Source: a virus. From it: a stretch of DNA of 40,940 nt. Below are positions 10,875 through 40,940 of the stretch, one piece after another. Numbering within the stretch: position 1 is the first letter of the stretch; each line of letters opens with the position of its first letter. The stretch lies in IMG/VR virus record IMGVR_UViG_3300009374_000012, positions 1 to 40,940 of that record. One strand, written 5' to 3'. The notes under the pieces were generated by a model. It made no database searches and was not told where the DNA came from. It was given only the letters and a program-made list of their open reading frames with translations. The position numbers and the translations under genes were made by a program.

Positions 10875-11233
10875 AGTTCTGGTTGCTCCTTGGCTATGAG
10901 GTCAAAAATATTTTCTATCTCACCATCATTAAGGCCAAAGTCTTTTATCTTTTCTTTGCCCGAATCACGAAGACGCTTAGATTTACTTTTTCTGACCTTG
11001 CCTTGTGTTGCGATCAGTTCATCCACTAGCGAGTGGATTCGTTCATCACCGGTTATGTAGGCAGTTAACACACTTCTGAAAAAGTCAGATTGTTTTATGC
11101 CATCGTGTTTAAGTCGTATTAGTAACTTAGCATGCCTATGATCATTGTCATAAAATATAATTCTCTTCTTCATATTGCCATAGTTGATGACTACTTCAAA
11201 ATCTTCAACAAAGTCTTTTTCCTCGTCTGACAT
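10871..11233 (-). CDS. Unknown basic/acidic phage protein
   Basis: I use the ATG at 11233, which overlaps the stop of the preceding enzyme gene as TGATG and has GGAAG upstream; an in-frame GTG lies 6 bases earlier. The 120-residue product (MSDEEKDFVEDFEVVINYGN...) has a strand-rich start, a segment KLLIRLKHDGIKQSDFFRSVLTAYI that could be a ribbon-helix-helix-like or small helical unit, then a very basic stretch (KVRKSKSKRLRDSGKEKIKD) and an acidic end. It sits directly before the sigma region 4 gene and may be co-translated with it. I recognise no known family with confidence. Confidence 0.7.
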   Translation of the reverse strand: MSDEEKDFVEDFEVVINYGNMKKRIIFYDNDHRHAKLLIRLKHDGIKQSDFFRSVLTAYITGDERIHSLVDELIATQGKVRKSKSKRLRDSGKEKIKDFGLNDGEIENIFDLIAKEQPEL

Positions 11234-17209: not shown

Positions 17210-17238
17210 TAAATAGTTAATCGACTACTTGAAGTCAA
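17210..17238 (-). promoter_or_regulatory. Hybrid promoter: TTGACT plus ACTATTTA
   Basis: The minus strand reads TTGACT, 17 bp, TATTTA within AACTATTTACAT. This is the only ACTATTTA site with a -35 box at the correct spacing. The -35 lies inside the end of the ClpP2 gene. It precedes the J-domain gene. Confidence 0.6.
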
Positions 17239-17830
17239 ACTCAACTTTCACCGTGATCGATAGCTCCGGAATGTGTCCATGCGTAGCTAAGTTGTGCTTC
17301 TTTGCTTCATCTAATTCTAGGAACCAATCCGCATGGCCTCTCTCGTGAACAATGTCCAAAAAATAGTCTTTATGTTTGCCGCAGTTATCTGCCATCATGT
17401 TATATATTTTTTGATTTAGTCTCTCAGTTTCTTCTGCTGATGCCTTTATTTCTTCTATTTTGCCCCAAGACATAGATGACACATCGTGAATCATTAAGGT
17501 TGCATCTGGATCCATGTAACGATAACCATCTGCCCCAAAGCTAAACAGAATAGCGCCACAAGACATTGCTTTTCCTTGCACTATTGTTGCAACTGGTATC
17601 CTAGAGTGTTTGATATCTGAAATCATTGACATTAAGCTGTAAACTTGTCCACCATAGCTATCGATAATAATCGGAACTAGTGGTTGGCCAGTGTTTTGAG
17701 CGACTCTCATTTGTTTCGAGAAGTCTTTTGCTGACTGCTCTGTGAATTTGTTAACTCGTATGACGACCGGTAGATCCTCACGAAGCTCATTGTCTTTTAA
17801 GAGAGGACAATCTCTTTTTAATATGTTCAT
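17225..17830 (-). CDS. ClpP-like serine protease 2, full catalytic triad
   Basis: The 201-residue protein matches ClpP: IIIDSYGGQVYSLMSMISD, VQGKAMSCGAILFSFG with nucleophile Ser90, and ATLMIHDVSS with His115. The third residue is Asp168 (HADWFLELDEAKK). It therefore keeps the triad that ClpP-like protein 1 (9082-9687) has lost. It would form barrel-shaped peptidase rings and could mix with phage or host partners. It begins 3 bases after the DnaE stop, and its GGGAT site is weak, so translation is probably coupled to DnaE. Confidence 0.92.
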   Translation of the reverse strand: MNILKRDCPLLKDNELREDLPVVIRVNKFTEQSAKDFSKQMRVAQNTGQPLVPIIIDSYGGQVYSLMSMISDIKHSRIPVATIVQGKAMSCGAILFSFGADGYRYMDPDATLMIHDVSSMSWGKIEEIKASAEETERLNQKIYNMMADNCGKHKDYFLDIVHERGHADWFLELDEAKKHNLATHGHIPELSITVKVEFDFK

Positions 17831-20800: not shown

Positions 20801-21265
20801 ATGGCTTGCCGAAATCAAAGCAAACAAGTTATTTAAACCCTTCTGGTTCTGGGCTAGTAGGACTAGATGGCGACGGCGGCGTAGCGGATCAGTCTTCTTT
20901 TTACTGGAGCCTTCGTCTTCTGATGTGCCACCCTTGGCTTCTTTTTTCAAAGCTTTGGCTTTCTTTTTGTCAGCCATCGCTGTCGCGTAATCCTCTCTCC
21001 AGTCGGCAATAGATGGAATAAAATAAGCCTCACAGCCAAAAATGGGCTTGAATACTCTACCTTCTGCTGCCATCTTTTTTGCGTGCAACACTTGATAAGA
21101 GAGACCATTAGCATTCCCGTGATCAGTGAGTGCTAATGCATCCATACCGTTGGCATATGCAGAGTCCATATGTTCGTCTGGTAATCCCAATGCGTCGAAA
21201 ATAGACCCTGCGACACTGTGAGCATGAAGGCCAACAAATTTAATAGTTGATTTAGTACGTTTCAT
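17834..21265 (-). CDS. dnaE: DNA polymerase III alpha subunit (family C)
   Basis: I use the ATG at 21265, which overlaps the preceding gene as ATGA and gives 1143 residues, close to E. coli DnaE (1160). The N-terminal PHP domain keeps metal ligands: HAHS (14-17), LTDHGNANG and GCEAYF. The palm has GPGRGSAVGSLTAYVLG followed by DYPDIDTDIS (about 469-476), the catalytic acidic pair. The C-terminal part includes the tandem helix-hairpin-helix region (SIKGLGDAAIVQVL) and an OB-fold. This polymerase copies DNA processively with a clamp. A complete DnaE is uncommon in phages and coexists here with a family A polymerase. A sigma70 promoter lies upstream. Confidence 0.97.
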   Translation of the reverse strand: MKRTKSTIKFVGLHAHSVAGSIFDALGLPDEHMDSAYANGMDALALTDHGNANGLSYQVLHAKKMAAEGRVFKPIFGCEAYFIPSIADWREDYATAMADKKKAKALKKEAKGGTSEDEGSSKKKTDPLRRRRHLVLLAQNQKGLNNLFALISASHAKENFYRYPRMDYDMLEKHNEGIIAASACLGGIYAGSYWEHRDEGTEAVLEAMRESTRRMVDIFGDRWYPELQWHNIPEQHELNKFIIQIAEEFNLKLISTADSHYPTKAAWRDRELYKRLGWLGRGKPSFAEDDDFLPKTIEDTKCELYPKNGDQMWENYKRFSEINKTEYDDEVVRQSIEETYAIAHERIESFMPDTTVRLPDFVVPDGLTDTQAIVKIAIEGLKNKGLNNKPEYVERLKHELGVINDRGFSKYFLTMAAIIDVANKSMLVGPGRGSAVGSLTAYVLGITQVDPIAYDLPFERFLRSDAVDYPDIDTDISDSMLLKEKLVEMWGDDCVAPISNWNTLQVKSLVKDISKLHGVPFNEVNTVTSAMGREAMPEAKRLNNIVSGVHTPNWDELRMFSPSLKQFLMKYPEVEEQVGSLVGQRRSNSRHAGGLLVSENLNSNMPLINSGGVIQSPWSEGQNVRHLEPLGFIKFDLLGLSTLRMIEGCIEHILKRHHGTSEPTFAEIKKYYDDTLHPDVLDLTDQKVYEYVFRKGNFAGTFQFSNDGAQGFCKEVAPKTIAEISAVTSIFRPGPLAGRVNDQYIAAKDDPTDIKWYHPIFREITEETFGHIIYQEQISEITHRIGKDISRDDGNTIRKLLTKKGTGKEHLLVKFREQFIEGANDNGMTIGTAEEIWDLMAGFAKYGFSKNHATAYSIISYQCAWLWTHFPSEWAAAFLDKEPESRKEKAINIVKSSGFELAPLDINKSGRVWEISDDSKTLIQPLTSIKGLGDAAIVQVLENRPFTTAEELLFKEGVTYSKLNKKCLDALCRGGALDGLVDERFTGRKHFWSACIVDRPKTEKRLKDNIGLYKPEGDFSEEEIIQFKTDLTGVFPMNLVINEQTIEKLKERHVPPISEFDPELHLCWFIPRKVIPKKTKKGEDYWIVEVIDSNNELTKIRCWGIRKGKDRIHLNKPYMSRLKYDPKWGFSTYAVGKTFRLLG

Positions 21266-22143
21266 TCTTCCCCTTTTTCTATACACATTTTATCATGTCT
21301 GTGTGGGTTTGTCAATAGCTTTTCTGGTGTTTCTATGTTATTGTCTGAGCCAAGGAAGTTACAATATTCCGACCAATTCGACATATCGTAATACCACTCC
21401 AAGATCATCTTGTGTGATGTTTTTTTTATCTCTAGTTCTGCGAATACTTCTTTGATGCTCAAGTGACGAGCAGACCATCGATCTGCCAATGGTCTCTTTC
21501 GGCTGGGCATGTGCTCACCTGGCAGTGGGGGTAAATACTCTCTTGTAGTATTTTTGTTTATTGCATTACGACATTTTTTAAAGTCTGTACCAAACATTGT
21601 AAATGGCAAAGGCAAGCCATCTCTAATTGTCATATCGTTGTATGTCAGAAAGAAATTGTGCTTACTATCGCATATCTCTAGACGATGGGGTCGCAAATCA
21701 TATATGTTATACATAGCCATCGGGAAGGCTACAAAGAACTTTTCTGGAATGACCCACTTAGAAATAGACCACGCCGTCATATAGGCTGACTGCATTCCAC
21801 ATAGAGCAGACCAACTGTACGAATCTCTACGCTCACGATCTTTCGGACGTATCGGAACATAATAAATGGGTATCTCTCTACGATATTCTCTGTGGCCGCG
21901 ATCTGTTCGTCGGCGATATAAGTATACAGGATCGTATATCCACTCACCAACTCGTTTACGAATAATTGGAGCGAGATCGTCATTTGCGACAATCCAGATA
22001 GTCTTACATCCAGCCATAGCGCACTCAAATACAGCTTTTTGGATTGCTGTGTAATCTGGGTTTATTGGCAATAATATTTCTGGAGTATCTAGCTGAAAGT
22101 CACTCTTTAAATTGGCCACAGGGACTATTCCGGCTACATGCAT
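21262..22143 (-). CDS. Nucleotidyltransferase-like protein
   Basis: I place the start at the ATG at 22143 (GAGGTAG upstream), giving 293 residues. The N-terminus resembles sugar-nucleotide transferases: MHVAGIVPVANL then EILLPINPDYTAIQKAVFECAMAGCKTIWIVANDDL, i.e. the NTP-transferase order (start strand, LPI, AIQ helix, G-x-x-x-I-W-IV). The usual GxGTR signature loop is replaced, so catalysis is uncertain. Further on it has IPIYYVPIRPKDRERRDSYS. I recall closely similar proteins in marine phage contigs. It could modify surface or virion glycans or act in DNA modification. It overlaps dnaE by ATGA. Confidence 0.6.
   Translation of the reverse strand: MHVAGIVPVANLKSDFQLDTPEILLPINPDYTAIQKAVFECAMAGCKTIWIVANDDLAPIIRKRVGEWIYDPVYLYRRRTDRGHREYRREIPIYYVPIRPKDRERRDSYSWSALCGMQSAYMTAWSISKWVIPEKFFVAFPMAMYNIYDLRPHRLEICDSKHNFFLTYNDMTIRDGLPLPFTMFGTDFKKCRNAINKNTTREYLPPLPGEHMPSRKRPLADRWSARHLSIKEVFAELEIKKTSHKMILEWYYDMSNWSEYCNFLGSDNNIETPEKLLTNPHRHDKMCIEKGEE
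21287..21315 (-). promoter_or_regulatory. Sigma70-type promoter of dnaE
   Basis: TTGACA, a 17-bp spacer and TAAAAT are seen on the minus strand inside the end of the nucleotidyltransferase-like gene, about 22 bp before the dnaE ATG. Confidence 0.8.
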
Positions 22144-27986: not shown

Positions 27987-29357
27987 CTACTTCTTTCTCA
28001 ATTTTGTGTATTTTTGTCTCAACAATTCTTGTTGCTGTTTCGCCCCGAGGGCAGGCATACCCCCTGAAACGCCGCTAATGGCCCCCTGAGCACGGGGCAT
28101 AACTTTAATACACACATTCGATGTATCCATAAAAATATCATAAATTATCCCATCTGGGCCGTTCCTATTCTTTGCTATAAACATCTTGCCTTGGTTATTC
28201 TGTTTGTCCTCAATGGTTCTTGAGATAGAGAGAATAAAGTCAGCCACAAAGCACTTATTGAACGCTTCAGATATTTGCTCCATTGTGATTACTTCGGCGT
28301 TAAGGCCCGATCTGTTGGTTTGAGAAGCTGTCCAAACTGGACACTTGAATTCTGTTGAGATTCCTCGCAACTCTTCATAAATAGACTCCAATTCATTTCT
28401 CTTTTCTTTTCTCACTACAACTGGGCGCAAAAGATCGGCATAGTCAACAATTATCATTCCTGGATTAATTCCACGCTTTACAAGCCGAGATAGGTGTGCT
28501 CTGATCGTCTGTGTTGTAGCTGATTTGGTTGGATACTCCTTAATGATCAATTTGCCATTGATGCCCTTTACTTTTTCATATATTTCGTCCTTGAAAGAAG
28601 TTAAGCTTGACAAAGGGAAGCCAGTGATACAGCTATCGTAGCGGCTTGCTATCACTGTCTCTTGTAGTTCCATTGTATAGTGAACAACAACCTTTTCTTC
28701 TTTTAGTGCCTGTGCTCCCAAGTGGACCAGCACCATGCTCTTACCAGCACCCGTGGGAGCTATGACAACCCCCATCTCACTCACCCCAAGTCCACCACCA
28801 GTAATGCCATCTACTTCTTTCCACCCTGTTGTCACTGGCTTTCTGAATTTTGGAACAAACCTAGCTTCAAAGTCGGCTAGGTAATCATAACCAAAATTAT
28901 TATCTGAGCCTAATTTAATAGCATTATTGATTGTGTTCGAAATCTCATCAAAGGAACAAGTCTGTAGCAGTCCTACCGACTTCAGCATCGCCTCTTTCAA
29001 ATTCTGCTTTCTGCAAAATTCTAGCGACGACTCTTTGATATACTCTACATCAGTTGGTTCTCTGTTGTGTATGCGACTAAAATAATCTAAAACCTGTTGC
29101 TTGACTGTCTCATCTTCTTCTTCTAATTCTGTACGGAGTATCGAGATCATTGCTTCCATTGATGGATGCTTGTCGTATTTACTTCGAAAGTTGATCACCT
29201 TGGCTGCAAACAGCCTTAAGTACTCAAGCTCTAAGAAGTCGAGATCTAATACCTCGGTTATTTGATCGGCAAAAGGACGATCTTCAAAGATTAATTGAAC
29301 TAATCCCTCTTGAAACGATTTGCCATATTTGCCGAAGTTTATGTTTGCTGGTGACAT
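27987..29357 (-). CDS. DnaB-type replicative helicase
   Basis: The 456-residue protein has a helical N-terminal region (about 1-150) and a RecA-like ATPase core. Walker A is APTGAGKS (200-207), and Walker B is MIIVDYADLL (301-310). ASQTNRSG matches helicase motif H3, and FIAKNRNGPDGI contains the motif H4-type KNR. It unwinds DNA at the fork, 5' to 3', in a hexamer. The N-terminus is less conserved than in bacterial DnaB and looks like T4 gp41. A sigma70 promoter lies between it and the exonuclease gene. Confidence 0.93.
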   Translation of the reverse strand: MSPANINFGKYGKSFQEGLVQLIFEDRPFADQITEVLDLDFLELEYLRLFAAKVINFRSKYDKHPSMEAMISILRTELEEEDETVKQQVLDYFSRIHNREPTDVEYIKESSLEFCRKQNLKEAMLKSVGLLQTCSFDEISNTINNAIKLGSDNNFGYDYLADFEARFVPKFRKPVTTGWKEVDGITGGGLGVSEMGVVIAPTGAGKSMVLVHLGAQALKEEKVVVHYTMELQETVIASRYDSCITGFPLSSLTSFKDEIYEKVKGINGKLIIKEYPTKSATTQTIRAHLSRLVKRGINPGMIIVDYADLLRPVVVRKEKRNELESIYEELRGISTEFKCPVWTASQTNRSGLNAEVITMEQISEAFNKCFVADFILSISRTIEDKQNNQGKMFIAKNRNGPDGIIYDIFMDTSNVCIKVMPRAQGAISGVSGGMPALGAKQQQELLRQKYTKLRKK

Positions 29358-29416: not shown

Positions 29417-30403
29417 CTAAGTCACTCTTTTTCGCTTCTCTGAACACTCTCGACTAATAAGAGCCAAATGTGTCCTCAGTGTTTCCCAATTTAGCTCCCC
29501 AAAGCCATCGATATTCATCATCTTAATGATCTCTGTTCTATTAAACTCACACTCAAAATTATTCACGGTATACTCAACATGTTGTTTTGATTGTATTGAA
29601 AGCTGAGGAGCATACAATTGCATTAGTTTATAATTGTGGCGTATTGTATCTTGTTCTTCAATTATGCGAGATAAGACTTTTAATTTATTTTCTGACTCCT
29701 CGCAAGTTTGAACAATATCATCTAGCGTGTAGTCCTTGGCTTCTGCAAGATATGGAAATCTCTTCTTTATTGTTCCGAATCCTACGCCCCTGACGCCTTT
29801 AAGGTTGTCTGACTTGTCACCAATAATTGCCCTAGCTAACGCCATGTTTGTTGGGTGAACTCCAGTTTCTTCCACAACTCTGCCAGAATTTAAGAACTCA
29901 TCTTTTGTTGGCCTCCATAAGACAGTTTCGTCATCACAAAGCTGCATGAAATCCTTGTCATTAGAGACGACAATCTTCTGCCAGCCTTTGTAATATGACA
30001 TTTGAGTCAAATAGGCAATTACATCATCTGCTTCGATATCTGGCACCATAAATTGAATCACCGGCATCGAATTAAGATATTCAACAATACGAGCGTGTTG
30101 CCACATTTTGTTTTGTAGCTCTTCGTTCTCTGTAAGGTTCCGTATCGATCTATTTAATCGAACTGGCTTACGACCCGCTTTATATTTTTTGTCCATAGTA
30201 CGGCGCTTCCTAGAGCCATTGGGGCCATCCCATACGACTATGATCTGACTGGGCTTAGTGACACGAACAAGTTTCTGTAAGATCTTCGTAAAGCCCTTGA
30301 GGCCGCCAATTGGGCTTCCATTAAGAGACAAACTAGGATCAACTATATAAGCTCGTAAATATGCGTTCAGGCCATCGATGATTAGTACTCGTTGTTTTTC
30401 CAT
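29417..30403 (-). CDS. 5'-3' exonuclease (FEN/PolA N-terminal family)
   Basis: I use the ATG at 30403, which overlaps the preceding stop as TAATG and gives 328 residues. The metal-binding acidic motifs are in order: VLIIDGLNAYLRAY (Asp10), VVWDGPNGSRKRR, DIEADDVIAY, VVSNDKDFMQLC, and the helix-3-turn GDKSDNLKGVRGVGFGTI. This is the fold of T4 RNase H and the PolA N-terminus. It removes RNA primers or flaps. The family A polymerase at 35961-37148 has no such domain, so the pair equals a split Pol I. Confidence 0.95.
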   Translation of the reverse strand: MEKQRVLIIDGLNAYLRAYIVDPSLSLNGSPIGGLKGFTKILQKLVRVTKPSQIIVVWDGPNGSRKRRTMDKKYKAGRKPVRLNRSIRNLTENEELQNKMWQHARIVEYLNSMPVIQFMVPDIEADDVIAYLTQMSYYKGWQKIVVSNDKDFMQLCDDETVLWRPTKDEFLNSGRVVEETGVHPTNMALARAIIGDKSDNLKGVRGVGFGTIKKRFPYLAEAKDYTLDDIVQTCEESENKLKVLSRIIEEQDTIRHNYKLMQLYAPQLSIQSKQHVEYTVNNFECEFNRTEIIKMMNIDGFGELNWETLRTHLALISRECSEKRKRVT

Positions 30404-30666
30404 TAGACCTTCTGTAAGTCTGAGATCATGGAGTCGACGTCTAATTTGCGGATTGAGCTCCACTTAAACCAATCGTATTCTGGATTCAAGCCTTCATTAC
30501 GAAGATCGGCTTTCCAGTTGTTGTATTTTTGGCGTGTTTCGTCATTGATCCAATCGACCTTGACATATTTCCAGCCGCCCTCTGTTTTTTCTTCTCTCAC
30601 CGTTCCAAATAAAAGGCTCAGATCACCATACGTGGTCCAAACCTTTTGCCCTATTAAAGTGTCCAT
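30403..30666 (-). CDS. Small unknown protein, SH3-like pattern
   Basis: The 87-residue protein (MDTLIGQKVWTTYGDLSLLF...) starts with a strand-turn-strand pattern (GQKVWTTYGD, GTVREEKTEGGWKYVKVDWIND) resembling short SH3/KOW-type barrels and ends with an acidic helix. AGGAG precedes the ATG. A near-consensus sigma70 promoter lies directly upstream, so it leads the exonuclease unit. The function is unknown. Confidence 0.7.
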   Translation of the reverse strand: MDTLIGQKVWTTYGDLSLLFGTVREEKTEGGWKYVKVDWINDETRQKYNNWKADLRNEGLNPEYDWFKWSSIRKLDVDSMISDLQKV

Positions 30667-30690: not shown

Positions 30691-30719
30691 ATTATAATCT
30701 ATTTTTTGTTGTTTGTCAA
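30691..30719 (-). promoter_or_regulatory. Consensus sigma70 promoter
   Basis: The minus strand has TTGACA, a 17-bp spacer and TATAAT, a perfect match to both consensus boxes, about 25 bp before the small gene at 30666 and overlapping the end of the upstream gene. Confidence 0.9.
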
Positions 30720-31379
30720 GTGTTCTTTTATGGCCTTTTCGGCAATCTTTGCAACTGCCCATCTAGAATTTCGAGATAAGCCCTTATAAGTCTCCAGATG
30801 TTCAGATACCTCTTTAAAAACAAATGGGCGACGCTTAACACGACTCATAAATTCTGCCTCTTCTCCGCCAGTAAAATCGCCAACAGGCTCTTTTCTGCCC
30901 AAGCCAGGCCAAGCTTCATTGGTTCCTAGCAAATAAGCTTCTCTCCCTCCACGTGGAATAATCAGCACCGAATCTTGACAAAACATTGCCGATAACGATC
31001 CTAAAGTGTCAGCAAATTTTGGATCATCTGTATAATTTACAACAAAGAAGCTCTCTTCAGCAACTTCTATAGATGGGTGCTTCTTTTTATCTTTTGAATT
31101 AAAATTCTCAATATAAGAGCCATCTATTGTAGTTACACCAAATCCCTTTTTCAGCAAAATAGCTCGCAGAGCTCTATTCCTTTCAAAATTGACATCCGCA
31201 TCTTCATCCTTTTCTGTCCCTATTGATGGAACATCAAGCACACATTGGTGACGTGAACGCGGCGAATTGCGGTGTCCTGTGATAATTGCAGACTCGTGTT
31301 CTGAAATGTGTTGGTGTATTCTGCTCAGGCCGGATTCTCTGATATTTGATTTCTTCCAGTTTTCAATTATTTTCTTCAT
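30699..31379 (-). CDS. Unknown phage protein with ENW leader
   Basis: The 226-residue protein begins MKKIIENWKKSNIRES. The middle (SRIHQHISEHESAIITGHR, NRALRAILLKKGFGVTTIDG, SFFVVNYTDDPKFADTLGSL, CQDSVLIIPRGG) resembles small phage proteins I recall with a DUF3293-like fold, in which a residue-rich strand set is followed by the QDSVLI stretch. The N-terminus shares M-K-x-[LI]-x-ENW with the neighbour at 31376-31909. In T4, a short N-terminal leader of similar type (MKTYQEFIAEA) targets internal proteins to the head. Function is unknown. ATGA overlaps the neighbour. Confidence 0.65.
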   Translation of the reverse strand: MKKIIENWKKSNIRESGLSRIHQHISEHESAIITGHRNSPRSRHQCVLDVPSIGTEKDEDADVNFERNRALRAILLKKGFGVTTIDGSYIENFNSKDKKKHPSIEVAEESFFVVNYTDDPKFADTLGSLSAMFCQDSVLIIPRGGREAYLLGTNEAWPGLGRKEPVGDFTGGEEAEFMSRVKRRPFVFKEVSEHLETYKGLSRNSRWAVAKIAEKAIKEHLTNNKK

Positions 31380-31937: not shown

Positions 31938-33074
31938 CTACTTATCGTCTTTGTCGGTAGGATCTTCATAAAAGTCGGCTGCTTTGCCTTCTCGCTTGTC
32001 GAACTTTTGGACGATATGTTCTTCTACAATCTCGTGTATTAATGCCTTGAACTCTGGCTTAGCCATTTGCTTCATCCAAGTTCCTGGTTGGAATTTAATG
32101 TGTTTGTCGGTGTCCTCGTCGATATGATACCAGCTTCCCCTACTGCACACCCTCTTAGAGCCCTTTATTGCTTCAAATAGGCTTTCGTCATTTTGGATGC
32201 CGATATTGTCTGTTCCCCAGAGAATTTTGAAAAAGCAATTTCGACCTTGTGTCCCAAAGCGTGATTTCTCAATCTTACATTTTACTTCTGAGCCTATTCG
32301 AAATCCATTCTCATCTTGAACAAAGGCAGCCTTTGATTTACGACCTGTAAGCCATATGCGCAATGAGTATGAATAATGCAAAGCCTTGCCACCGGGAGTG
32401 ACATACGGAGTCGTCATTACAATCTGTCGCGCCATCGGCCCCTGTGGAATGTTTGTTTTCAACTGGTTTAATATAAGCAGAGTTGCTTGTCTGTCGGCAA
32501 GTGGTATGATAAGTTTTGACATTCCTTTGGCAAGAATACGAGCTTTTACTGCGACAGAAGATTGAGGATTGAAGTCACCTTCCACATCTGAGATTGACGG
32601 CGTGAATGCCAACGAATCCCAAATGAAAACCATCTGTTCCTCTGATGCACCTAGTAAGTCTTCTATTGTCTCTAGGACAAACTCAACTGACGATGCTTGA
32701 ATGTACATCAGGCGCGACAAGTCGCAGCCAGAACGTTCTAAAAAGTCTGGATCGATGGCCGACTCAGAATCAAAATAAACAACGATTTTATTCATTTTTT
32801 GGGCGTTGGCGGCGATTTGGGCAGCCATGTAACTTTTACCGGTAGATGTAAGCCCTGCCAACTCACTGACCTTCCCAACTGGAATACCGGACATCTTACC
32901 CTTGCAAATAATAGAATCTAGCCATCGGCTGCCGGTCGGGATCCATTCCTTGACTTCTGTGGGGTTGTTGCCCGATAGATCGTGGGCAACATCTCTACCT
33001 GCCTTCTTATTGACAAGTTTCATTAGGTCTTTCATTGACACCCGACCGGCTTTAGTTTCTTTTTTCTTACTCAT
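31938..33074 (-). CDS. RecA/UvsX-family recombinase
   Basis: The 378-residue protein has a RecA fold: Walker A GLTSTGKS (74-81), VVYFDSESAIDPDFLERSG, Walker B-like MVFIWDSLAFTPS, and QLKTNIPQ with TPGGKALHYSYSLRIWL in the L2/core region. It would pair DNA strands for repair and recombination-dependent replication. The length and motif spacing fit phage RecA/UvsX. ATGA overlaps the methylase. No separate promoter was found directly upstream. Confidence 0.95.
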   Translation of the reverse strand: MSKKKETKAGRVSMKDLMKLVNKKAGRDVAHDLSGNNPTEVKEWIPTGSRWLDSIICKGKMSGIPVGKVSELAGLTSTGKSYMAAQIAANAQKMNKIVVYFDSESAIDPDFLERSGCDLSRLMYIQASSVEFVLETIEDLLGASEEQMVFIWDSLAFTPSISDVEGDFNPQSSVAVKARILAKGMSKLIIPLADRQATLLILNQLKTNIPQGPMARQIVMTTPYVTPGGKALHYSYSLRIWLTGRKSKAAFVQDENGFRIGSEVKCKIEKSRFGTQGRNCFFKILWGTDNIGIQNDESLFEAIKGSKRVCSRGSWYHIDEDTDKHIKFQPGTWMKQMAKPEFKALIHEIVEEHIVQKFDKREGKAADFYEDPTDKDDK

Positions 33075-33931
33075 TGAATCTTCCCTATCATTAAAATCTC
33101 TCTTGCTTTCTTGGCCTCAAAGCCATCAGTAGTCTTCTTTCGCCTTCCTGCTGTATAAGTTACATCAAAATATACCATATCATTCTTTCCCACTCTTTCC
33201 TCAAAGAAGTTGTCTCCTACGTCTCTATTACTCATCATAGCATGTGCTCCCCTTGAAGTCAAGTCATTTAAGAAAGATATAACTTTTTCTTGGATTTCGT
33301 CATCAAAGTCGACGCCATACTTCGTGAAAGAGCCGCGATAAGGTGGATCAAGGAAAGCATAAGTGTTTGATTTAACTTCGCCCAAAGTGTCGGCAAAATC
33401 ACCCGACATAAGCTTGCACCGTTTTAATGCCGTGTGCCATTCCAATACGTTGTCCTTGTCATAAACTTTGTCCTTTTGATTCAATAGCCCAGAGGGAGTA
33501 CCGAATCTGCCATTTGTGTTATTGTTGATCTGCCAGATGCCATTAAAGCCTGTCTTCATCAAGAAATATAAGGTTGCAGATTCTTTGATTGCAGACCATT
33601 CAGCATAGTGGTATGCATGTTGATCTCTAAGGTTATAATAATACTTTTTTCGTTCTGGTTTATCTAGAGGTAGAAATTCGGATTGATAGTTATCCATTAC
33701 TTCCATAAACTCTTCTGGGTTCTGTTGTATGGCTCGATATATATTCATGATCGATTCATTGATATCATTTAAAACAAAAGTTGCCTCTGGGTTCTGCTTA
33801 TATGCCCACACAAACATGGCTCCTGCGCCAAAAAACGGCTCAATATAGTGTTCAAATGAGTCGGGGAGATGTTCTTTGTACTTCTTGAGCATTTTGGTCT
33901 TTCCACCTGCCCACATAAATAATGGTTTCAT
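33071..33931 (-). CDS. dam: D12-class DNA adenine methyltransferase
   Basis: The 286-residue protein keeps the expected motifs: FMWAGGKTKML (AdoMet loop, 5-15), EPFFGAGAMF, FLMKTGFNGIWQ (123-134), and the catalytic FLDPPYRGS (193-201). The size is typical of Dam-type enzymes. It methylates adenine in a short DNA site, possibly GATC. It is intact, unlike the degenerate relative at 4710-5462. GGGTGG precedes the ATG. Confidence 0.95.
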   Translation of the reverse strand: MKPLFMWAGGKTKMLKKYKEHLPDSFEHYIEPFFGAGAMFVWAYKQNPEATFVLNDINESIMNIYRAIQQNPEEFMEVMDNYQSEFLPLDKPERKKYYYNLRDQHAYHYAEWSAIKESATLYFLMKTGFNGIWQINNNTNGRFGTPSGLLNQKDKVYDKDNVLEWHTALKRCKLMSGDFADTLGEVKSNTYAFLDPPYRGSFTKYGVDFDDEIQEKVISFLNDLTSRGAHAMMSNRDVGDNFFEERVGKNDMVYFDVTYTAGRRKKTTDGFEAKKAREILMIGKIQ

Positions 33932-34253: not shown

Positions 34254-35030
34254 CTATGCGCCGGCCATTAACTCGTTGAAGGCTCGGTCTACTTCGTTGC
34301 CACCAGAATTGGTAGCGGCATACTTGGTGGTTTCCGTACTTCGACTTTCGGCAGAACCATTTCCAGCAAGTTGCTCATCAAGTATCGCATCAATCTGCTC
34401 TTTGGTCTGTCGCTCGAATAGCGAGTCGAAGTCGGGCATACGATCTAGGAGGGAAGGGATCGCTTCATCGTCTTCGAGCAAGAGTGATGTATTTCGTCGC
34501 ATTTTCAGACTTGTCTGAGGGAATGCACCAGGCTTATTCGGCTTGGTGTATGTTAGGGCGATGTCAGTGCCCTCTTTGGCGTCAGTAATGTCGCCATACT
34601 CTGGGTCAAGGATATAACCAAGCAACAGTTCGTATGCTTGTTTTCCGTAACCATAAATTTTAATTCCTTCTTCTTCTCGGCCTCGGACAAGGACTGGGGA
34701 GAAGTATCTGGTTCGAACAAATAGGCTCTTTGCGAGATTCTTCGTTTCTGTGTCGTTTTTGTCTGTTCCTTCGCGCCATAGTGCGGAAGCAAACTCGCAA
34801 ATCGGACAGGCTTCACCAAAGTTGCGTTTCGGGCACACAATCCCGCCTCTATGTTGACCGACATTGTAATGGAAGAACATTTCCTTAAGCGGGTCGCCGT
34901 CTTTAGTTGGGACGATACGAATGGTTGTTTCGCCCTCGTCTGGCTTGAAGAATGGACCGTGGTCTTTCTTCGCTCCTTCACCTCGTAGTGAAGCTAGTTT
35001 CTCTCTCATCAGTTTCATATCAATACTCAT
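34254..35030 (-). CDS. Single-stranded DNA-binding protein, T4 gp32-like
   Basis: The 258-residue protein starts with a gp32-like region (MSIDMKLMREKLASLRG) and has an OB-type core with a zinc site: FFHYNVGQHRGGIVCPKRNF, GEACPICEFASALW, i.e. His54 (or His60), Cys66, Cys75, Cys78. The spacing H-x11-C-x8-C-x2-C is close to T4 gp32 (H-x12-C-x9-C-x2-C). The C-terminus is acidic and Ser/Thr-rich, as in ssDNA-binding proteins that recruit partners, though it ends NELMAGA. It coats ssDNA at the fork. AAAGGAG precedes the ATG and a sigma70 promoter lies upstream. Confidence 0.9.
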   Translation of the reverse strand: MSIDMKLMREKLASLRGEGAKKDHGPFFKPDEGETTIRIVPTKDGDPLKEMFFHYNVGQHRGGIVCPKRNFGEACPICEFASALWREGTDKNDTETKNLAKSLFVRTRYFSPVLVRGREEEGIKIYGYGKQAYELLLGYILDPEYGDITDAKEGTDIALTYTKPNKPGAFPQTSLKMRRNTSLLLEDDEAIPSLLDRMPDFDSLFERQTKEQIDAILDEQLAGNGSAESRSTETTKYAATNSGGNEVDRAFNELMAGA

Positions 35031-35079: not shown

Positions 35080-35964
35080 TTACCCCTCTAATGTATCACC
35101 ATTCAACGAGCTTGTCAAGTGGTTTTTTTGTTTTTGTGTCGCATTTGTATTAGCCACGACAAAGCCAAAGTCTTGTTTGTGTTCGGTGCCATAAATGGCA
35201 TACGAAATGTGCTTAAAGGCATTTTTTGGTTTATTCTTCAAAATATCTACTAGCCTTCGGTGGAGTCCACCATCAGTCTCAAGAGCCTCATCTCTGATAC
35301 ATATATAATAACACATATCTCGCGAGTTGTCAAGGTCAAATAGCCATTTTTCTTCTAAAGTTTTTGGATTTAATATTCCAATTGTTCTTATTCTGTTAAT
35401 GTCGTTGGGCTTCGATATAACACCTATCTCTGGATCAGCATGAGTGAAATAGTTGTAATAATGAACAGTCGAAAAAATTGAATTATTGATCGTATCAAAA
35501 TATGTTTTAATGGGCACTTGTCCAACAACCTCTTCAACTTTTAAATTGGAAATAAGAGTCACAGATGACAAAAGGCCAGATCTTGCGTACTCCTGTAATA
35601 CACCAAAGACTGCTTGCTCTACTAGTCTCGGCATTCCTGTTAAAAGTTCTGTGTCTGGTTTAATGTAGAATACTTCTATTTTTTTATTTTTAATCTGCTC
35701 AAGTATTCCCAAAACATAGTTCGAACTAAACGAGGAGCCAACAACGAACACTTGTACGTGATCGTTAATGTCGGTAAAAAACTTAGTGAGGTCGGGGATG
35801 TTCTTTTCATAGTCCTCTGGGTTTGCATATGTTTTTAGTTTATATTTCCTCTTCGACGACCGAGCTACAGAACTGCTCATTTGATATACATCGTAGTTGC
35901 TCGTTGAGTTGAACTTTTCAGCAATCGCTGAGGCACCGTTGCCTATTCCGACTATTGAAATCAT
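35080..35964 (-). CDS. Divergent tubulin/FtsZ-superfamily protein
   Basis: The 294-residue protein follows the FtsZ/tubulin order but with degenerate nucleotide loops. T1-like: IVGIGNGASAIAEKF (4-18). T4-like: VFVVGSSFSSNYVLGILEQI (72-91) in place of GGGTGTG. T5/H6-like: YIKPDTELLTGMPRLVEQA. T6-like: LISN (Asn140). H7-like: YFDTINNSIFSTVHYYNYF (155-173). The Gly-rich signature GGGTG(S/T)G is lost, so GTP hydrolysis as in FtsZ is doubtful. I recall near-identical proteins in marine phage contigs. It lies between SSB and Pol I, which suggests a replication or DNA-positioning role. Superfamily membership is inference. Confidence 0.6.
   Translation of the reverse strand: MISIVGIGNGASAIAEKFNSTSNYDVYQMSSSVARSSKRKYKLKTYANPEDYEKNIPDLTKFFTDINDHVQVFVVGSSFSSNYVLGILEQIKNKKIEVFYIKPDTELLTGMPRLVEQAVFGVLQEYARSGLLSSVTLISNLKVEEVVGQVPIKTYFDTINNSIFSTVHYYNYFTHADPEIGVISKPNDINRIRTIGILNPKTLEEKWLFDLDNSRDMCYYICIRDEALETDGGLHRRLVDILKNKPKNAFKHISYAIYGTEHKQDFGFVVANTNATQKQKNHLTSSLNGDTLEG
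35090..35118 (-). promoter_or_regulatory. Sigma70-type promoter of SSB
   Basis: CACTTGACA, a 17-bp spacer and TACATT on the minus strand, inside the end of the tubulin-like gene. The SSB start is about 60 bp downstream. Confidence 0.8.
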
Positions 35965-37148
35965 ATATCCAACCTCGTGAAGTCTAAATAGTTCTCTCCA
36001 ATATTTAGATTAACTTTAAATGATCCAAGTTTATTGACAGAAAATGCCTCTTGTATTTCGGGAACAAGATAACGATCCTCTTCAGCTAAATCAACAACTA
36101 TCTCGTCATGAACAATGTGGGAAATAAAACTTTTCTTGTTCGCTAGTAGCTCGTCTATTGCAACAGCACGCCCTAATACCAAATCAGAAGTTGTACTCTG
36201 AATTAGATAATTAAATGACCTACGCTCATCTATTTTAATGTGTCTGTTCATTGGAGTGCTAATATAACCATCTTTGTACCACTTGTCAAGTAATTTCTCA
36301 CGGTCATAAACACCTGCGGCGGTCGAATCAGAATTATAGTCATAGAGCCACGCAAAAAACTTTACTTTAGCGGCCTCACGGTCAATCTTACGGTCTCTAA
36401 AAATGTTTTCCATATTCCACTCGTGGATATCTTTTTCTGGCTGGTCAACGCCCAGTAAGCCAAGCACAGTGCGTGCCTCTGCTCCATTGTAATCTAGAGA
36501 TAAGAACCATCTATTGTGGGGGCGAATTAAAGCACGAAAGTCTTTCTTCATTGTTAGAATCGGACAAGAGCCAGTTTTTGTAGTTAGCCTACCGGTGACA
36601 GTTCCAAATAGATTATAGTCAATGTGTTTGGGGCCATTCATAAACTCACGAGCTTTTGTGCGAGTGTTATAGCCAACAAATAGGTTGCGGGCTTTAGAGC
36701 TATCGAAATTTAGATTCTGGTATTTTATCTTATAGAGTAATCTCTCTATTGATGCTAAATGATCGTAGTTGGCGGGGCGCTCGTAGTTGTCAAAAACGTG
36801 TTGTGTGACTTTATTTTTAATCTCGCAGAACTCTGTTAAGAAGTCATGAGGCACAAGATCATAAAAACAATGTTCTCGCAAGTTGATACGGCCAAGCTGA
36901 AAAGATTTAAGATATGCCCTAAATGTACGTTGGATGCGACTGACATCTTCCTTTTGTTCTTGTGAGCAAGCGTCCTCTAGTGTCTTTCCGTTAACATAAA
37001 GCCAAGCATATTCAACACTTGAATCCGTTATCGACGGAGTATATCTCCATGTTTTCGTTAAATTGGCTGGTATGTGGTCAAAGTGCAATTGTCCATCAAC
37101 ATAAATTCCAACGCAATCTGATTTGTCGTCTAGTGTTTGAAATATCAA
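35961..37148 (-). CDS. Family A DNA polymerase, no exonuclease domain
   Basis: The 395-residue protein is a Pol I polymerase domain. It shows FGTVTGRLTT (182-190), motif A LDYNGAEART (Asp219), the O-helix R257-K261-F265-Y269 (REAAKVKFFAWLY) and motif C HIVHDEIVV (His347, Asp348, Glu349). Phe265 corresponds to F762 of E. coli Pol I, the ddNTP discriminator. It lacks a 3'-5' exonuclease domain, and the separate FEN nuclease is at 29417-30403. It could finish Okazaki fragments, or be the replicative enzyme while DnaE has another role. A sigma70 promoter overlaps the end of the preceding gene. ATGA links to the tubulin-like gene. Confidence 0.93.
   Translation of the reverse strand: MIFQTLDDKSDCVGIYVDGQLHFDHIPANLTKTWRYTPSITDSSVEYAWLYVNGKTLEDACSQEQKEDVSRIQRTFRAYLKSFQLGRINLREHCFYDLVPHDFLTEFCEIKNKVTQHVFDNYERPANYDHLASIERLLYKIKYQNLNFDSSKARNLFVGYNTRTKAREFMNGPKHIDYNLFGTVTGRLTTKTGSCPILTMKKDFRALIRPHNRWFLSLDYNGAEARTVLGLLGVDQPEKDIHEWNMENIFRDRKIDREAAKVKFFAWLYDYNSDSTAAGVYDREKLLDKWYKDGYISTPMNRHIKIDERRSFNYLIQSTTSDLVLGRAVAIDELLANKKSFISHIVHDEIVVDLAEEDRYLVPEIQEAFSVNKLGSFKVNLNIGENYLDFTRLDI
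35985..35991 (-). promoter_or_regulatory. Putative promoter motif AACTATTTA
   Basis: The minus strand reads AGAACTATTTAGACTTCACG, inside the last codons of the polymerase gene and about 20 bp before the tubulin-like gene. The spacing matches the other sites, but coding use cannot be excluded. Confidence 0.4.
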
Positions 37149-38344
37149 GGTTCCTCCGAACGTGCGTTTATTCTCCTTACAATATAACTCAACGAACCCG
37201 ATTTGTCAAATGGTTTGTTGGCTATTCTTTCAAACACAAACAAAGAAGCTTTTATTCCCTTATTGTCATACAATTGAAGAGTGTCAGACAATAGTTTTAT
37301 TTTATCTTCTTTCGGCATTGTTCCTTCTTCTTCAATAAGTCGCAACTTACAATATAATTCTAACATATTCCGTTCAGAAAAATGTTTATTCAAGCTCTCC
37401 GATGTATAAGTCAATGGTTTTTTGTAATGTGTGACAACTTTGCCAGCACATTCAGAAGTAAATGTGACAGTTTTTTTGATAGAGTTGTGATATATGTCTC
37501 GAATACTGATAACAAACTTGTTAAATGAACTTAAATAAGAAGAATTATAAGACGACCACAGAACAAGATCTGTTTCTGACTGGTCGTATTTGGCTGCATA
37601 CTGTTGCATCTGCTTGGAGCCTATGTCGGCGACCAATCGCCAAGGATGAGATTTGTCTACCATAAATCCATATGTGGTGCAAGCATTTAAATAAAACTCC
37701 CAATTGGGGCTATTGATAAACTTATTAATCTTTTCACTGTCGTCAGTGGATTTGAGATTGGCTATATCAATGACTAAGCCGGATACATTCATTGGGCATC
37801 TACGACTTTTAATATAAGATATCTTGGTCAAAGGCACTGATTCTAACGAGCGCGTAAAAACGGGAATCAGTGCGGTCGTGAATTCTGTAAAGTTCATTAT
37901 TTGAGGGTTTCTTCTTTTTATCTCTTTCGATAATATGTCGACATGCAAATTGTGGTAACTGCTGTATTCTTTGTTGATGTCCTGATAGCCTTTAAATGCC
38001 CGTAGTGATGTCAAGAATGGATCTTGGGTGCCTATTTCGCCAGACAAAGATTTTTTATCGAATTGTCTAACTAAATCTGAAAAAGCATCGGCCACAAAAT
38101 TCAACACACGAATATCTCGATTTCCAGAAACTGATTTAATCGACTTGAGCCTTCGTTTGTTGACTATTTCCAGTGGCACATTGAATCTATCTACACGACC
38201 ATATAGCAGTTTTTCGCCAAAGTTAAAATCAGTCAGAGTTGAGTATTTTTCTCTATGGCTCTGTAGCGTATCGTTGTATATCACTCTTTCATCAAATAAT
38301 TTGATTGTCTTTTCGGCATTATTCTTTTTGTATTTGGCCATCAA
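37145..38344 (-). CDS. Unknown protein between virion-like and polymerase genes
   Basis: The 399-residue protein (MMAKYKKNNAEKTIKLFDERV...) is basic and has no signal peptide or membrane segment. It contains a possible coiled-coil-poor, mixed fold with several conserved-looking islands: EKYSTLTDFNFGEKLLYGRVDRF, YIKSRRCPMNVSG, WRLVADIGSKQMQQYAAKYD. I recall similar proteins beside structural genes in marine phage contigs. It overlaps the virion-like gene by ATGA at its start and the polymerase by ATGA at its end. Its 3' end holds the promoter of the polymerase. A virion or maturation role is possible; the family is not recognised. Confidence 0.65.
   Translation of the reverse strand: MMAKYKKNNAEKTIKLFDERVIYNDTLQSHREKYSTLTDFNFGEKLLYGRVDRFNVPLEIVNKRRLKSIKSVSGNRDIRVLNFVADAFSDLVRQFDKKSLSGEIGTQDPFLTSLRAFKGYQDINKEYSSYHNLHVDILSKEIKRRNPQIMNFTEFTTALIPVFTRSLESVPLTKISYIKSRRCPMNVSGLVIDIANLKSTDDSEKINKFINSPNWEFYLNACTTYGFMVDKSHPWRLVADIGSKQMQQYAAKYDQSETDLVLWSSYNSSYLSSFNKFVISIRDIYHNSIKKTVTFTSECAGKVVTHYKKPLTYTSESLNKHFSERNMLELYCKLRLIEEEGTMPKEDKIKLLSDTLQLYDNKGIKASLFVFERIANKPFDKSGSLSYIVRRINARSEEP
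37181..37209 (-). promoter_or_regulatory. Sigma70-type promoter of the Pol I gene
   Basis: TTGACA, a 17-bp spacer and TATATT on the minus strand inside the end of the 399-residue gene; the Pol I start is about 33 bp downstream. Confidence 0.75.
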
Positions 38345-40940
38345 CTTTTACTCACTACTTCTTTTGAATTCTGTATGCTGCACCAAGAGGGGGCATTAGT
38401 TGTATCCTTTTCCGAAACATTGTCCAATTCAGTGTGCACTTTGGGCGTTATGCTAGCAACCCATTTGGCCGATATTGATGTCTCTGCTCTTCCAGGACCA
38501 AAACTGTGCTCTGATCGCACTATCATGTGGTAGCCACCAATGCCTATTTGTGTCAAATCTGCCCTTGATCTGACAGACGGAGAAAAGCCGGCTGGATCTA
38601 CATATATGTATACCCCAGGATATGCATTGACATTAGTGAAAGTCTTTATATCAATATCATAGACCTCTCTTAACTGACTAAGGCCATCATAACCATCTTG
38701 TTCGAATCTCAGCTCTTTGAGACCAGTTGAGTCAGTCCTCTTTAAATTGATTGCTTTTACTATTCCTCTATCCTTTCCCACAGAATAATGAAATATGCCT
38801 CGTGAGTGATCTCTAACAATATTACCATTCATTTTCTCTGATGGCTGGGAGCGGCCAGCATAATAAGCTAAATAGTTGATCTCTTCACCGACAGCACCCG
38901 ACGAAGCAGGGCTGTTTACTCTGCCAGAGATATTTCTTAGCAATGGTCGACTACTCATTACATCACCTAGTGTAAGTCGATTCTTCCAGTCTATGGGCCA
39001 TGGGCCTGGACCCAATGTAAGGTCAGTTATTTCATCTACGCCAGTCGATCTATTTTTGTACGAAGTCAAGGAAGCTTGGCTAACTCTTGTTCTTTGCTTT
39101 GCTTGACTGCCAAAACATTCTTCCTCATTCAGAAATTCGCTAATAAGATTATTAAAGAAATCATTCAAAAATTTGGGCAATGGGTAATAAGATTCACCTC
39201 GTTTGGCCATTTTGCGAGACATCCACTCAGTGAAATATTTTATCGAAATAGGCAAGTCCCCCATAGAAATCAAGATAGTTTTATTTATATCTGATTGGTC
39301 TTTAATCTCTAGTGGGCCCAACAGGACACGCAGTTTTTTAAATTGTGTCTCCATTTTTCGGACATTCTCGGCTTCTTCTTCTAAAATGGCATCAACTGCT
39401 GCTCCATGGATAATCTGACCAGTAGGTGTTTTTAGAATTTCACCCGGATCCTTTGACAAATTAGAGATAAAGTTGGCCATATGATCTTTGCCATATGTGG
39501 TGCCTATATTTTGCAATATGACATCGATTAGATCGCTAACATAGAAGAACGGAACTGTTTGTATGTCGTCTGTGTCTTCTGTGGCTATAGACTTAAAGCT
39601 TTCTAGTCTCTTTTCATTGTCGCCTAAGTCATTCTCAATTATAGCTTGACTCATTGAATTAGCTAGATCTTCCGTGTCCGTAGGTGCGGGAGATGAGAAA
39701 TCACTTGATGTCAATGCATCTTCCATTTTATAAAACGGACCTTGACGTAGCATTTCTCGTACCTGTTTATCGGTGATATCAACAAATCTTATTTTACCAT
39801 TAGAGGATAAATCTGTCACGATGGAGGCAAGGCTTATTTTCTTGTCATCATCTATTTCCGAAGCAGATGACTTCTTTAATTCTTGGCGGTGCTCTGATTC
39901 GCATTTCTCGGAAAACACTTTTGTTTTGATTTTTCGAACCAGGCGGCGCTTCTCTGGCTCAGTACTTGAAAATATATTAAATGACGGCTGATCAAAAAAG
40001 TCTTCAACATAAGCTAGATATTGAATCTTAAATACGACTCTTCCGTTTTCATCAATGTCAAAGTCATGAACAGTTGGGGTTAAATTTAACGTAACATACG
40101 AATTATATATAGCGTCTTTTACTTCGCTTCTTATGATGCTCCTACCGGATCCAGAATAAGAAGTGTCCTTGGCTTTGCTTGCCCAGCCAACTACTGCCTT
40201 AAGGCGGAAGTCAAGTTTATCTAAATTGTTTGACAATTCTTCATTATTTTGTGCTTTAGTGGCAGATGCTTTTGAAGCTGACGAACGACCTGTCTTAAGA
40301 GCCAAATCAACATATTTGAAAGTGTGATTACGGCCTGTTTGCCTTTCAGTTAGCAACTCATCAAAGTCATTTGCAAAAATAGATAAAGAAGCCTTTATGC
40401 TCTTCTTGAGGGCAAATGGGTTATCCGCCTCATAAGAAAAAGTAAAATCTTGTATACCGACGCCAGCGCCACGCTTAGTGCGATCCTTAAATAAAGCTAG
40501 ATCTCTCTTTGTAAAATAAGAGTCGAATGGTATTTCAAACTCCTCCTCTGTTCCATCGGCATATGCTTTTATCTTATATAACCTAATCATCGGCTGTAGG
40601 TTTGAAATCTCGCTTGTTTTGATATTCAGTAGATCTCCGTAACCCGGAAATTGAGTTAAGTGGTTCATGAACGCAAACGGATCACCTTCAACCTGTAGAC
40701 ATGCGTTATGTTCTGCCCTCACCCAGTCAGAGCCCGGCAACGATGTATATGGCATCCTCTTTGCCAAGTTTGTCTTATCTAGTATGCCAACTTTGTAATG
40801 TGCAAAAGCAGGTATCTGTGACAGTAGGAAACACTGTTCTTTGAAGAATGGGGGGAAAGTACCAGACACAGCGTCAGCAAAGATCTCAGCATCGGAATCA
40901 TCAAGTTTATCTTCTGCAACTTCTAGTCGCTCTATCGCCT
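38341..40940 (-). CDS. Large virion-structural-type protein, partial (5' end outside window)
   Basis: The frame is open from 40940 down to the stop at 38341, at least 865 residues; the first in-frame GTG at 40869 is probably internal, because the frame continues upstream (EDKLDDSDAEIFADAVSGTF). The true start is outside the window. No enzyme motif is seen. The C-terminal part is rich in beta-strand and Gly/Pro/aromatic content (AYPGVYIYVDPAGFSPSVRS, GIGGYHMIVRSEHSFG), and the middle has a charged helical region (EEEAENVRKMETQFKKLRVL). This composition is typical of virion structural proteins. The family is not recognised. Confidence 0.8.
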   Translation of the reverse strand, partial: AIERLEVAEDKLDDSDAEIFADAVSGTFPPFFKEQCFLLSQIPAFAHYKVGILDKTNLAKRMPYTSLPGSDWVRAEHNACLQVEGDPFAFMNHLTQFPGYGDLLNIKTSEISNLQPMIRLYKIKAYADGTEEEFEIPFDSYFTKRDLALFKDRTKRGAGVGIQDFTFSYEADNPFALKKSIKASLSIFANDFDELLTERQTGRNHTFKYVDLALKTGRSSASKASATKAQNNEELSNNLDKLDFRLKAVVGWASKAKDTSYSGSGRSIIRSEVKDAIYNSYVTLNLTPTVHDFDIDENGRVVFKIQYLAYVEDFFDQPSFNIFSSTEPEKRRLVRKIKTKVFSEKCESEHRQELKKSSASEIDDDKKISLASIVTDLSSNGKIRFVDITDKQVREMLRQGPFYKMEDALTSSDFSSPAPTDTEDLANSMSQAIIENDLGDNEKRLESFKSIATEDTDDIQTVPFFYVSDLIDVILQNIGTTYGKDHMANFISNLSKDPGEILKTPTGQIIHGAAVDAILEEEAENVRKMETQFKKLRVLLGPLEIKDQSDINKTILISMGDLPISIKYFTEWMSRKMAKRGESYYPLPKFLNDFFNNLISEFLNEEECFGSQAKQRTRVSQASLTSYKNRSTGVDEITDLTLGPGPWPIDWKNRLTLGDVMSSRPLLRNISGRVNSPASSGAVGEEINYLAYYAGRSQPSEKMNGNIVRDHSRGIFHYSVGKDRGIVKAINLKRTDSTGLKELRFEQDGYDGLSQLREVYDIDIKTFTNVNAYPGVYIYVDPAGFSPSVRSRADLTQIGIGGYHMIVRSEHSFGPGRAETSISAKWVASITPKVHTELDNVSEKDTTNAPSWCSIQNSKEVVSKS

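Follow-up and report, generated by a model that had tools for sequence, protein, structure and literature searches.

A protein of 294 aa encoded in the replication operon of an uncultivated T4-like phage is predicted, with good support from its structure model, to adopt the two-domain tubulin/FtsZ fold without any signal of that family at the sequence level, and long records from the same phage group also carry a canonical FtsZ-like gene. Together, the two proteins suggest a phage cytoskeleton of two components that is coupled to DNA replication. We named the 294-aa protein TubL in this analysis. Its gene was found in a 40,940-base virus record that is probably a genome fragment; the record was analysed as a whole and is called the window below. 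The open reading frame starts with ATG and lies on the minus strand; the plus strand of the same interval has stop codons throughout. Four points were established by computation: TubL has a predicted tubulin/FtsZ fold, it lacks the T4 and T7 motifs, its gene keeps a constant position, and both genes occur together in long records. What is new is a large group of uncultivated T4-like phages with a motif-less tubulin-fold protein that none of the profiles tried here detects and whose gene overlaps that of the polymerase, accompanied by a conserved canonical FtsZ. Phage-tubulin surveys that rely on a sequence profile or on the GGGTG motif would miss proteins of the TubL type.

The AlphaFold2 model of TubL, built with alignment A3, has a pLDDT of 89.6 and a pTM of 0.88 and terminates in a low-confidence tail. 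Its elements follow the order S1-T1-H1, S2, S4-T4-helix, S5-T5-helix, S6-T6-helix, H7 and C-terminal sheet, and it meets the criteria for the tubulin/FtsZ superfamily fold: an N-terminal domain of the nucleotide-binding type, a core helix H7 and a C-terminal sheet domain. A preliminary description of this DNA had proposed the strand and helix order of the tubulin family, with T1-, T4-, T5-, T6- and H7-like segments, and this order is seen in the model; the tubulin/FtsZ fold that it expected from structure prediction was also borne out, with FtsZ, TubZ, CetZ and tubulins as top matches over both domains. Foldseek against the PDB gave 804 matches with E <= 0.001, and the best 50 were all FtsZ or TubZ, with S. 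aureus FtsZ (5mn5) at rank 1, a top E of 2e-12 and other FtsZ structures next. The best 50 VIA-align rows were all FtsZ, CetZ, TubZ or tubulin entries, including CetZ 3zid (Z 23.7, rmsd 3.1, 258 aligned residues), TubZ 4ei7 (Z 22.3, rmsd 4.4, 284 aligned), Aquifex FtsZ 2r6r (Z 21.5, rmsd 3.6, 272 aligned) and tubulins (Z about 20.7). The structural alignments cover 258-289 of the 294 residues and both domains, the C-terminal one included, at identities of about 9-16% in the match rows. Among viral models (BFVD), the best match is annotated as FtsZ of an uncultured phage, with a TM of 0.72 by query length.

No usable match to TubL was obtained in Pfam, PHROGs or PDB sequences. The profile search against FtsZ/tubulin that the preliminary description had put forward as a check came back empty: PF00091 (Tubulin) does not match TubL, is absent from the 18 Pfam families matched by 20 TubL members at E <= 1 and has no match anywhere in the window record at E <= 10. 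None of the PDB FtsZ sequences matched TubL by sequence search. The PHROG family of PhuZ, phrog_4733, was not matched by the window TubL, for which phrog_2446 (E 0.016) was the only family at E <= 5, nor was it among the 25 of 35 PHROG families listed for 82 TubL members. The phrog_2446 match drew attention as other phages have a protein of about 150 aa after Pol I; kinship with this family was dropped, since only 1 of the 82 relatives matches it. Proteins of Microcystis and Flavobacterium phages were also considered as relatives and rejected, as the TubL profile gave no real score.

TubL is common in IMG/VR, where three scans confirmed 91, 463 and 521 stretches, the best 80 being kept from each. 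The gene is present in all 185 viral loci, with the window counted as one; the loci were not dereplicated, and a few records are present twice. The set of 178 relatives used for residue counts comprises these loci minus seven, of which six misfit the start pattern and one is the window in reverse. Alignment A3, with 82 members, has a median pairwise identity of 0.63 and a minimum of 0.54, and 44 invariant positions are listed for it. TubL had no match in a phage collection of 50,697 records. When bacterial and archaeal genomes were scanned with two peptide patterns, 104 stretches fitted and none was confirmed as a TubL relative, although a distant relative could escape such a scan.

Loop names in TubL were assigned from the order of the secondary-structure elements in the model, without residue-by-residue superposition. 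The sequence GSSFSSN (residues 76-82), which the preliminary description had taken for the replacement of a GGGTG-type loop, spans the end of strand S4 and the start of the next helix, and so stands at the T4 place as claimed. The loop is degenerate in 178 of 178 relatives, with GSSxSSNY and close variants at this place, and neither GGGTG nor GGxTG occurs in any of them (0/178). Loss of the catalytic T7 motif is an addition to that description: NxDxxD, searched for in residues 166-200, was found in none of the 178 relatives. The model has no helix between H7 (residues 152-175) and the strand at 192-198, the position at which FtsZ has helix H8. TubL thus fails the motif criteria for an FtsZ/tubulin GTPase, as the T4 signature GGGTG[ST]G, the T7 acids and, in the model, H8 are all absent. 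A universal C-terminal motif was considered and discarded, with an LDxL-type tail in only 57 of 177 sequences.

The putative nucleotide pocket is better preserved. G6 and G8 (T1), P103 and D104 (T5) and N160 (H7) are invariant, and N140 (T6) is conserved at 97%; in tubulin, one T6 asparagine and one H7 asparagine contact guanine. Taken jointly, the 27 positions of the putative pocket (T1, T4, T5, T6 and two H7 positions) are more conserved than random position sets, of which only 22 in 10,000 score as high, and also than shifted masks (1 of 277). Single loops are not significantly conserved alone (fractions 0.07-0.43); only the sum is. The simplest reading is that the pocket still holds a nucleotide, possibly guanine, without the parts that drive hydrolysis with the neighbouring subunit, and such binding is inferred.

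Table 1. Features of the window and records with the canonical FtsZ-like gene (positions in the window unless a record is named).
Feature	Position	Strand	Basis or remark
TubL, degenerate tubulin/FtsZ-fold protein, 294 aa	35080..35964	-	ORF from 35964 down to 35080, stop included; AF2 pLDDT 89.6, pTM 0.88; fold matches (predicted)
T1-like loop, residues 6-12 (G6 and G8 invariant, S12 99%)	35929..35949	-	Name from the model's secondary structure
T4-position loop, residues 76-83, GSSFSSNY instead of GGGTG-type loop	35716..35739	-	Sequence and model
H7-like core helix, residues 152-175 (N160 and H168 invariant)	35440..35511	-	Model and conservation
T7/H8 position, residues 176-191, without NxDxxD and without helix in the model	35392..35439	-	
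Compact DNA polymerase, family A	35961..37148	-	PF00476, E 3e-11; stop overlaps TubL start, 4 bp
gp32-like single-stranded DNA-binding protein (SSB)	34254..35030	-	PF08804, E 8e-16; phrog_1192
UvsX/RecA-like recombinase	31938..33074	-	PHROG and Pfam profile matches
Dam-type adenine methyltransferase (D12 class)	33071..33931	-	Pfam; present in a minority of related loci
5'-3' exonuclease	29417..30463	-	PHROG and Pfam profile matches
DnaB-like replicative helicase	27987..29357	-	PHROG match
399-aa conserved gene upstream of Pol I, function unknown	37145..38344	-	Position in related loci
Canonical FtsZ-like gene	L191:8283-9434 (record G003)		
Canonical FtsZ-like gene, further 12 records	G001, G002, G004, G005, G008, G045, G053, G056, G057, G063, G073, G074		

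The gene for TubL holds a fixed place in the replication operon (Table 1). In the order of transcription, the minus strand of the window encodes an 842-aa protein of unknown function, the 399-aa unknown, Pol I, TubL, SSB, the Dam methylase and UvsX/RecA, followed by a 177-aa unknown, a SAM lyase-like protein, an 87-aa ORF, the 5'-3' exonuclease and the DnaB-like helicase. The neighbours named in the preliminary description, SSB and Pol I, could be confirmed as a gp32-like SSB (PF08804) and a family A polymerase (PF00476). Of the 12 families tested as neighbours, Pol I lies closest to TubL on the 5' side in 159 of the 161 loci with room, the two exceptions being the window itself read in reverse and one locus with none, and SSB lies closest on the 3' side in 149 of 150, with the reversed window as the exception. 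In 166 of 175 loci, the start of TubL and the stop of Pol I share 4 bp. Similar cassettes without TubL were found in two members of the phage collection, in Flavobacterium phage immuto (Pol I, two small genes, SSB, RecA, exonuclease, DnaB), in which the two small genes between Pol I and SSB are unrelated to TubL, and in Microcystis phage Mel-JY01 (SSB, RecA, exonuclease, helicase, with a Pol I-like gene upstream).

Other genes of the cluster were also noted. The SAM lyase-like gene lies at 30699-31379 (minus strand), and a protein similar to its product is encoded directly before SSB in Mel-JY01. Upstream of Pol I, two genes without known function (the 399-aa gene of Table 1 and 38341-40869, both on the minus strand) recur in the lineage. 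The 399-aa protein has no PHROG match at E 0.01 and a single Pfam match, below the cut-off, and it is the fastest evolving of eight proteins compared in five genomes (median identity 0.34).

A search of five long TubL-phage records with PF00091 returned one gene per record over the cut-off (5/5), and this gene is distinct from TubL. Its product, of 378-383 aa, contains the motifs GVGGGGN, AGGGGGTGSS and SFDSKDL. A scan for this gene confirmed 96 stretches, of which the best 80 were kept, and 69 sequences remained once 11 loci had been left out by start pattern. All 69 keep both GGGTG and FDSKDL, and they are 82% or more identical to one another. Their profile matches PDB FtsZ chains with an E of 5e-9 over residues 69-289, from T1 through T7. 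With PF00091 over the cut-off, the GGGTG loop and the T7 acids, the gene meets the tested criteria for a canonical FtsZ; its structure model was poor (pLDDT 50.7) and was not used, so that the identification rests on sequence. In the five genomes compared, none of the other seven proteins is as conserved as this one (median identity 0.88, first 66 residues excluded); they include UvsX (0.78), SSB (0.76), DnaB (0.74), the exonuclease (0.69), TubL (0.63) and Pol I (0.52). In the collection of 50,697 phage records, its only match, at 23.5% identity, is in Bacillus phage G. TubL and the canonical protein could not be linked to each other, as hhalign gave a probability of 2% and their pairwise alignment was no better than shuffles. 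A putative descent of TubL from the canonical gene is not shown by these comparisons.

The surroundings of the canonical gene are also stable. Among nine tested families, an SbcCD-like nuclease, identified by Pfam, is its nearest 5' neighbour in 60 of 60 loci with room, with a variable spacer in between, and the 3' neighbour is an ORF called terminase in 73 of 80 loci. In one record read in detail, RuvC-type resolvase-like and primase-like genes precede the nuclease. The names terminase, RuvC-type resolvase and primase come from inspection of the sequence, without a profile search.

TubL and the canonical FtsZ-like gene were found together in 13 records, on the same strand in all of them, and six of these records were found via the canonical gene rather than via TubL. 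The canonical gene lies upstream of TubL, at a distance of 37.6-43.9 kb in 12 records (in one by wrap-around of the record's ends) and of about 37.5 kb in the thirteenth, which is 49.6 kb long. Starting from TubL, 7 of 47 records match the canonical profile and 40 do not; only one of these 40, a 72.2-kb record with 40.7 kb upstream of TubL, reaches at least 37.5 kb upstream. In this record the terminase ORF starts at base 4,517. Elsewhere the end of the canonical gene and the terminase ORF that follows it are separated by 2.2-7.1 kb, and by 4.2 kb or more in 33 of 77 loci; given a spacing of 4.2 kb, the 72.2-kb record may retain no more than about 300 bp of the canonical gene. Starting from the canonical gene, TubL is present in 10 of 37 records, and the other 27 are too short, with at most 32.7 kb downstream. 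The PF00091 search detected no canonical gene in the window, which is too short to contain it. Nor was the gene seen in the six records with an identical TubL (the window and L001-L005), none of which extends more than about 20 kb upstream. Given that the window is colinear with the long genomes, with DnaE and GroEL in the same order and at similar distances, its own phage very likely carries the canonical FtsZ gene as well. Common lineage might suffice to account for the two genes occurring together.

The TubL phages are T4-like by their major capsid protein gp23 (5/5 records), and their records reach up to 195.7 kb. They are presumably marine, judging only by the form of their IMG/VR record numbers and without habitat data. 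DnaE was detected in 6 of 7 and GroEL in 5 of 7 long records, the missing cases ending too soon on the relevant side, and both genes lie downstream of TubL in the window. The window phage therefore has two polymerases, DnaE (Pol III alpha, 1150 aa, 17834-21286, minus strand) and the compact family A enzyme. The window also encodes, all on the minus strand, two ClpP-like proteases (9082-9687 and 17225-17830), an enzyme of the IMP dehydrogenase/GMP reductase family (11233-12261; PF00478, E 9e-97), which could feed guanine nucleotide pools, and a GroEL-type chaperonin (6269-7846). Jumbo-phage tubulins are reported to go with HSP60 in the part of the survey available to us (PMC7824862).

Our leading reading, held with slightly less than even confidence, is that TubL is a pseudo-GTPase FtsZ, that is, a non-hydrolysing partner (cap, nucleator or tether) of the phage's canonical FtsZ. 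The canonical FtsZ-like protein would bind GTP and build a dynamic filament, while TubL would be translated in step with the polymerase and retained at the replication forks. Keeping a guanine-type pocket and unable to supply or use T7 acids, TubL may dock on the filament without turnover and, once docked, could anchor or organise the centres of phage DNA replication and recombination. Nucleotide binding by TubL, the absence of hydrolysis, contact with the canonical FtsZ and with the replisome, and a role in DNA positioning are all inferred, and there is no direct evidence for protein-protein contact, for nucleotide binding by TubL or for filaments of either protein. The suggestion in the preliminary description that TubL is non-hydrolysing or a scaffold likewise remains an inference, without nucleotide or filament data. 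Against a partnership, the two genes are about 40 kb apart and do not share an operon. If TubL and the canonical FtsZ do cooperate, they would make up a viral tubulin pair of one pseudo-GTPase and one GTPase, and would join a cytoskeletal filament directly to a replisome. We consider it doubtful, though possible, that they form an obligate two-component system, in which a pseudo-GTPase built into the replisome couples a canonical, recombination-linked FtsZ filament to the replication forks; were this true, it would be a new kind of viral cytoskeleton, with phage DNA synthesis and positioning mechanically linked.

TubL might instead work without the canonical FtsZ, as a monomer that scaffolds or regulates either the compact Pol I or SSB. 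Its constant position, with Pol I on one side and SSB on the other, and the start-stop overlap with Pol I are in keeping with such a replisome accessory, as are the loss of both nucleotide-dependent contact elements (T4 and T7/H8) and the presence in immuto of two small unrelated genes in the same interval. The pairing with a canonical FtsZ would then be a coincidence of lineage, however, and the pocket positions stay conserved, and we regard this explanation as rather unlikely, if still a serious one. Conservation could also point in another direction, to a tubulin that still binds nucleotide and self-assembles by means of its serine-rich T4 loop and perhaps a turn at D/E177-P178: serines 78, 80 and 81 at the T4 position are 92-96% conserved, D104, N140 and N160 are at 97-100%, and the residue at position 177 is acidic (D or E) in 99% by weight. 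Yet the absence of both NxDxxD and GGGTG from all 178 relatives and of H8 from the model makes this improbable.

A role outside replication, as a decoy that poisons the host FtsZ ring and blocks division of the infected cell, would suit a degenerate FtsZ fold, and phage proteins that act on host FtsZ offer a precedent, T7 Gp0.4 being one that blocks FtsZ. Phage proteins binding host FtsZ are described as known in the accessible portion of PMC13423816. Such a decoy fits poorly with a gene placed in a replication operon with a start-stop overlap, and the phages of the related long records encode an FtsZ of their own; we give it little credence. Finally, TubL could be a plain NAD(P)-binding Rossmann protein misread as a tubulin, as weak Pfam matches might hint: GARS_N was matched by 9 of 20 members (best E 0.0053), F420_oxidored by 3 of 20 and other dinucleotide-binding families by single members each, all below the cut-offs where shown. 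The best structural matches, in contrast, are FtsZ, TubZ, CetZ and tubulins over nearly the whole chain. Rossmann-type entries are missing from the best 50 Foldseek PDB rows and from the best 50 VIA-align rows, a comparison that does not rule out families beyond those rows, and the first epimerase in BFVD appears only at rank 10 (E 1e-3, TM 0.30). We give this explanation hardly any weight.

TubL differs from other members of the superfamily in several respects. Bacterial and archaeal FtsZ and CetZ, its best structural matches, share the two-domain fold with a core helix between the domains; unlike TubL, they have the GGGTG loop, the T7 NxDxxD and H8, and the identity is only 9-16%. Degenerate FtsZ-like families are also found in cells, such as ARC3 of plastids. 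Archaeal paralogs lacking functional motifs exist, and in FtsZl1 T6-H7 are not confidently identifiable, the GGGTG loop is kept and the genes are linked to vWA/membrane operons, according to the part of PMC2875224 that was accessible. Both FtsZl1 and TubL lack standard motifs, but FtsZl1 retains GGGTG and is tied to vWA/membrane operons and not to DNA replication.

PhuZ of the nucleus-forming jumbo phages is, like TubL, phage-encoded and of the tubulin fold. The preliminary description rightly cited it as a known phage tubulin, but it is not the sole one, given TubZ of c-st and the viral FtsZ-like models. In the available excerpt of PMC7950403, PhuZ hydrolyses GTP in positioning phage DNA, retains a catalytic T7 loop and assembles by means of its C-terminal helix/tail, and both PhuZ and TubZ are single active GTPases. 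TubL, by comparison, has neither the catalytic T7 motif nor a match to phrog_4733, and its tail is of low confidence in the model. A jumbo-phage survey reports two distinct FtsZ/tubulin representatives (PMC7824862), and a survey of large phages assigns most tubulins to Chimalliviridae and only a few to other groups (PMC11835377), both as far as the accessible sections go. Within the open-access literature searched, one result list of which was examined only in part, no phage was seen reported to carry a pseudo-FtsZ alongside a canonical FtsZ.

TubZ of Bacillus plasmids and phage c-st resembles TubL in fold (4ei7, Z 22.3) and keeps a GGGTG-type loop. It segregates extrachromosomal DNA and partitions c-st, with TubR and a centromere as partners, by the account in the same excerpt (PMC7950403). 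The identified neighbours of TubL are replication genes. Dual tubulins are a further term of comparison, and an AtubA/B entry is among the VIA-align rows for TubL. Both partners are recognisable GTPases in AtubA/B, in FtsZ1/FtsZ2 and in BtubA/B, another two-member tubulin system. The presence of two superfamily members in one organism, as dual or heteromeric tubulins, is documented for AtubA/B and for archaeal FtsZ1/FtsZ2 in the passages available from PMC12583498 and PMC8187382. The pair described here departs from these systems in that one member, TubL, has lost the T4 and T7 motifs and sits in a replisome operon.
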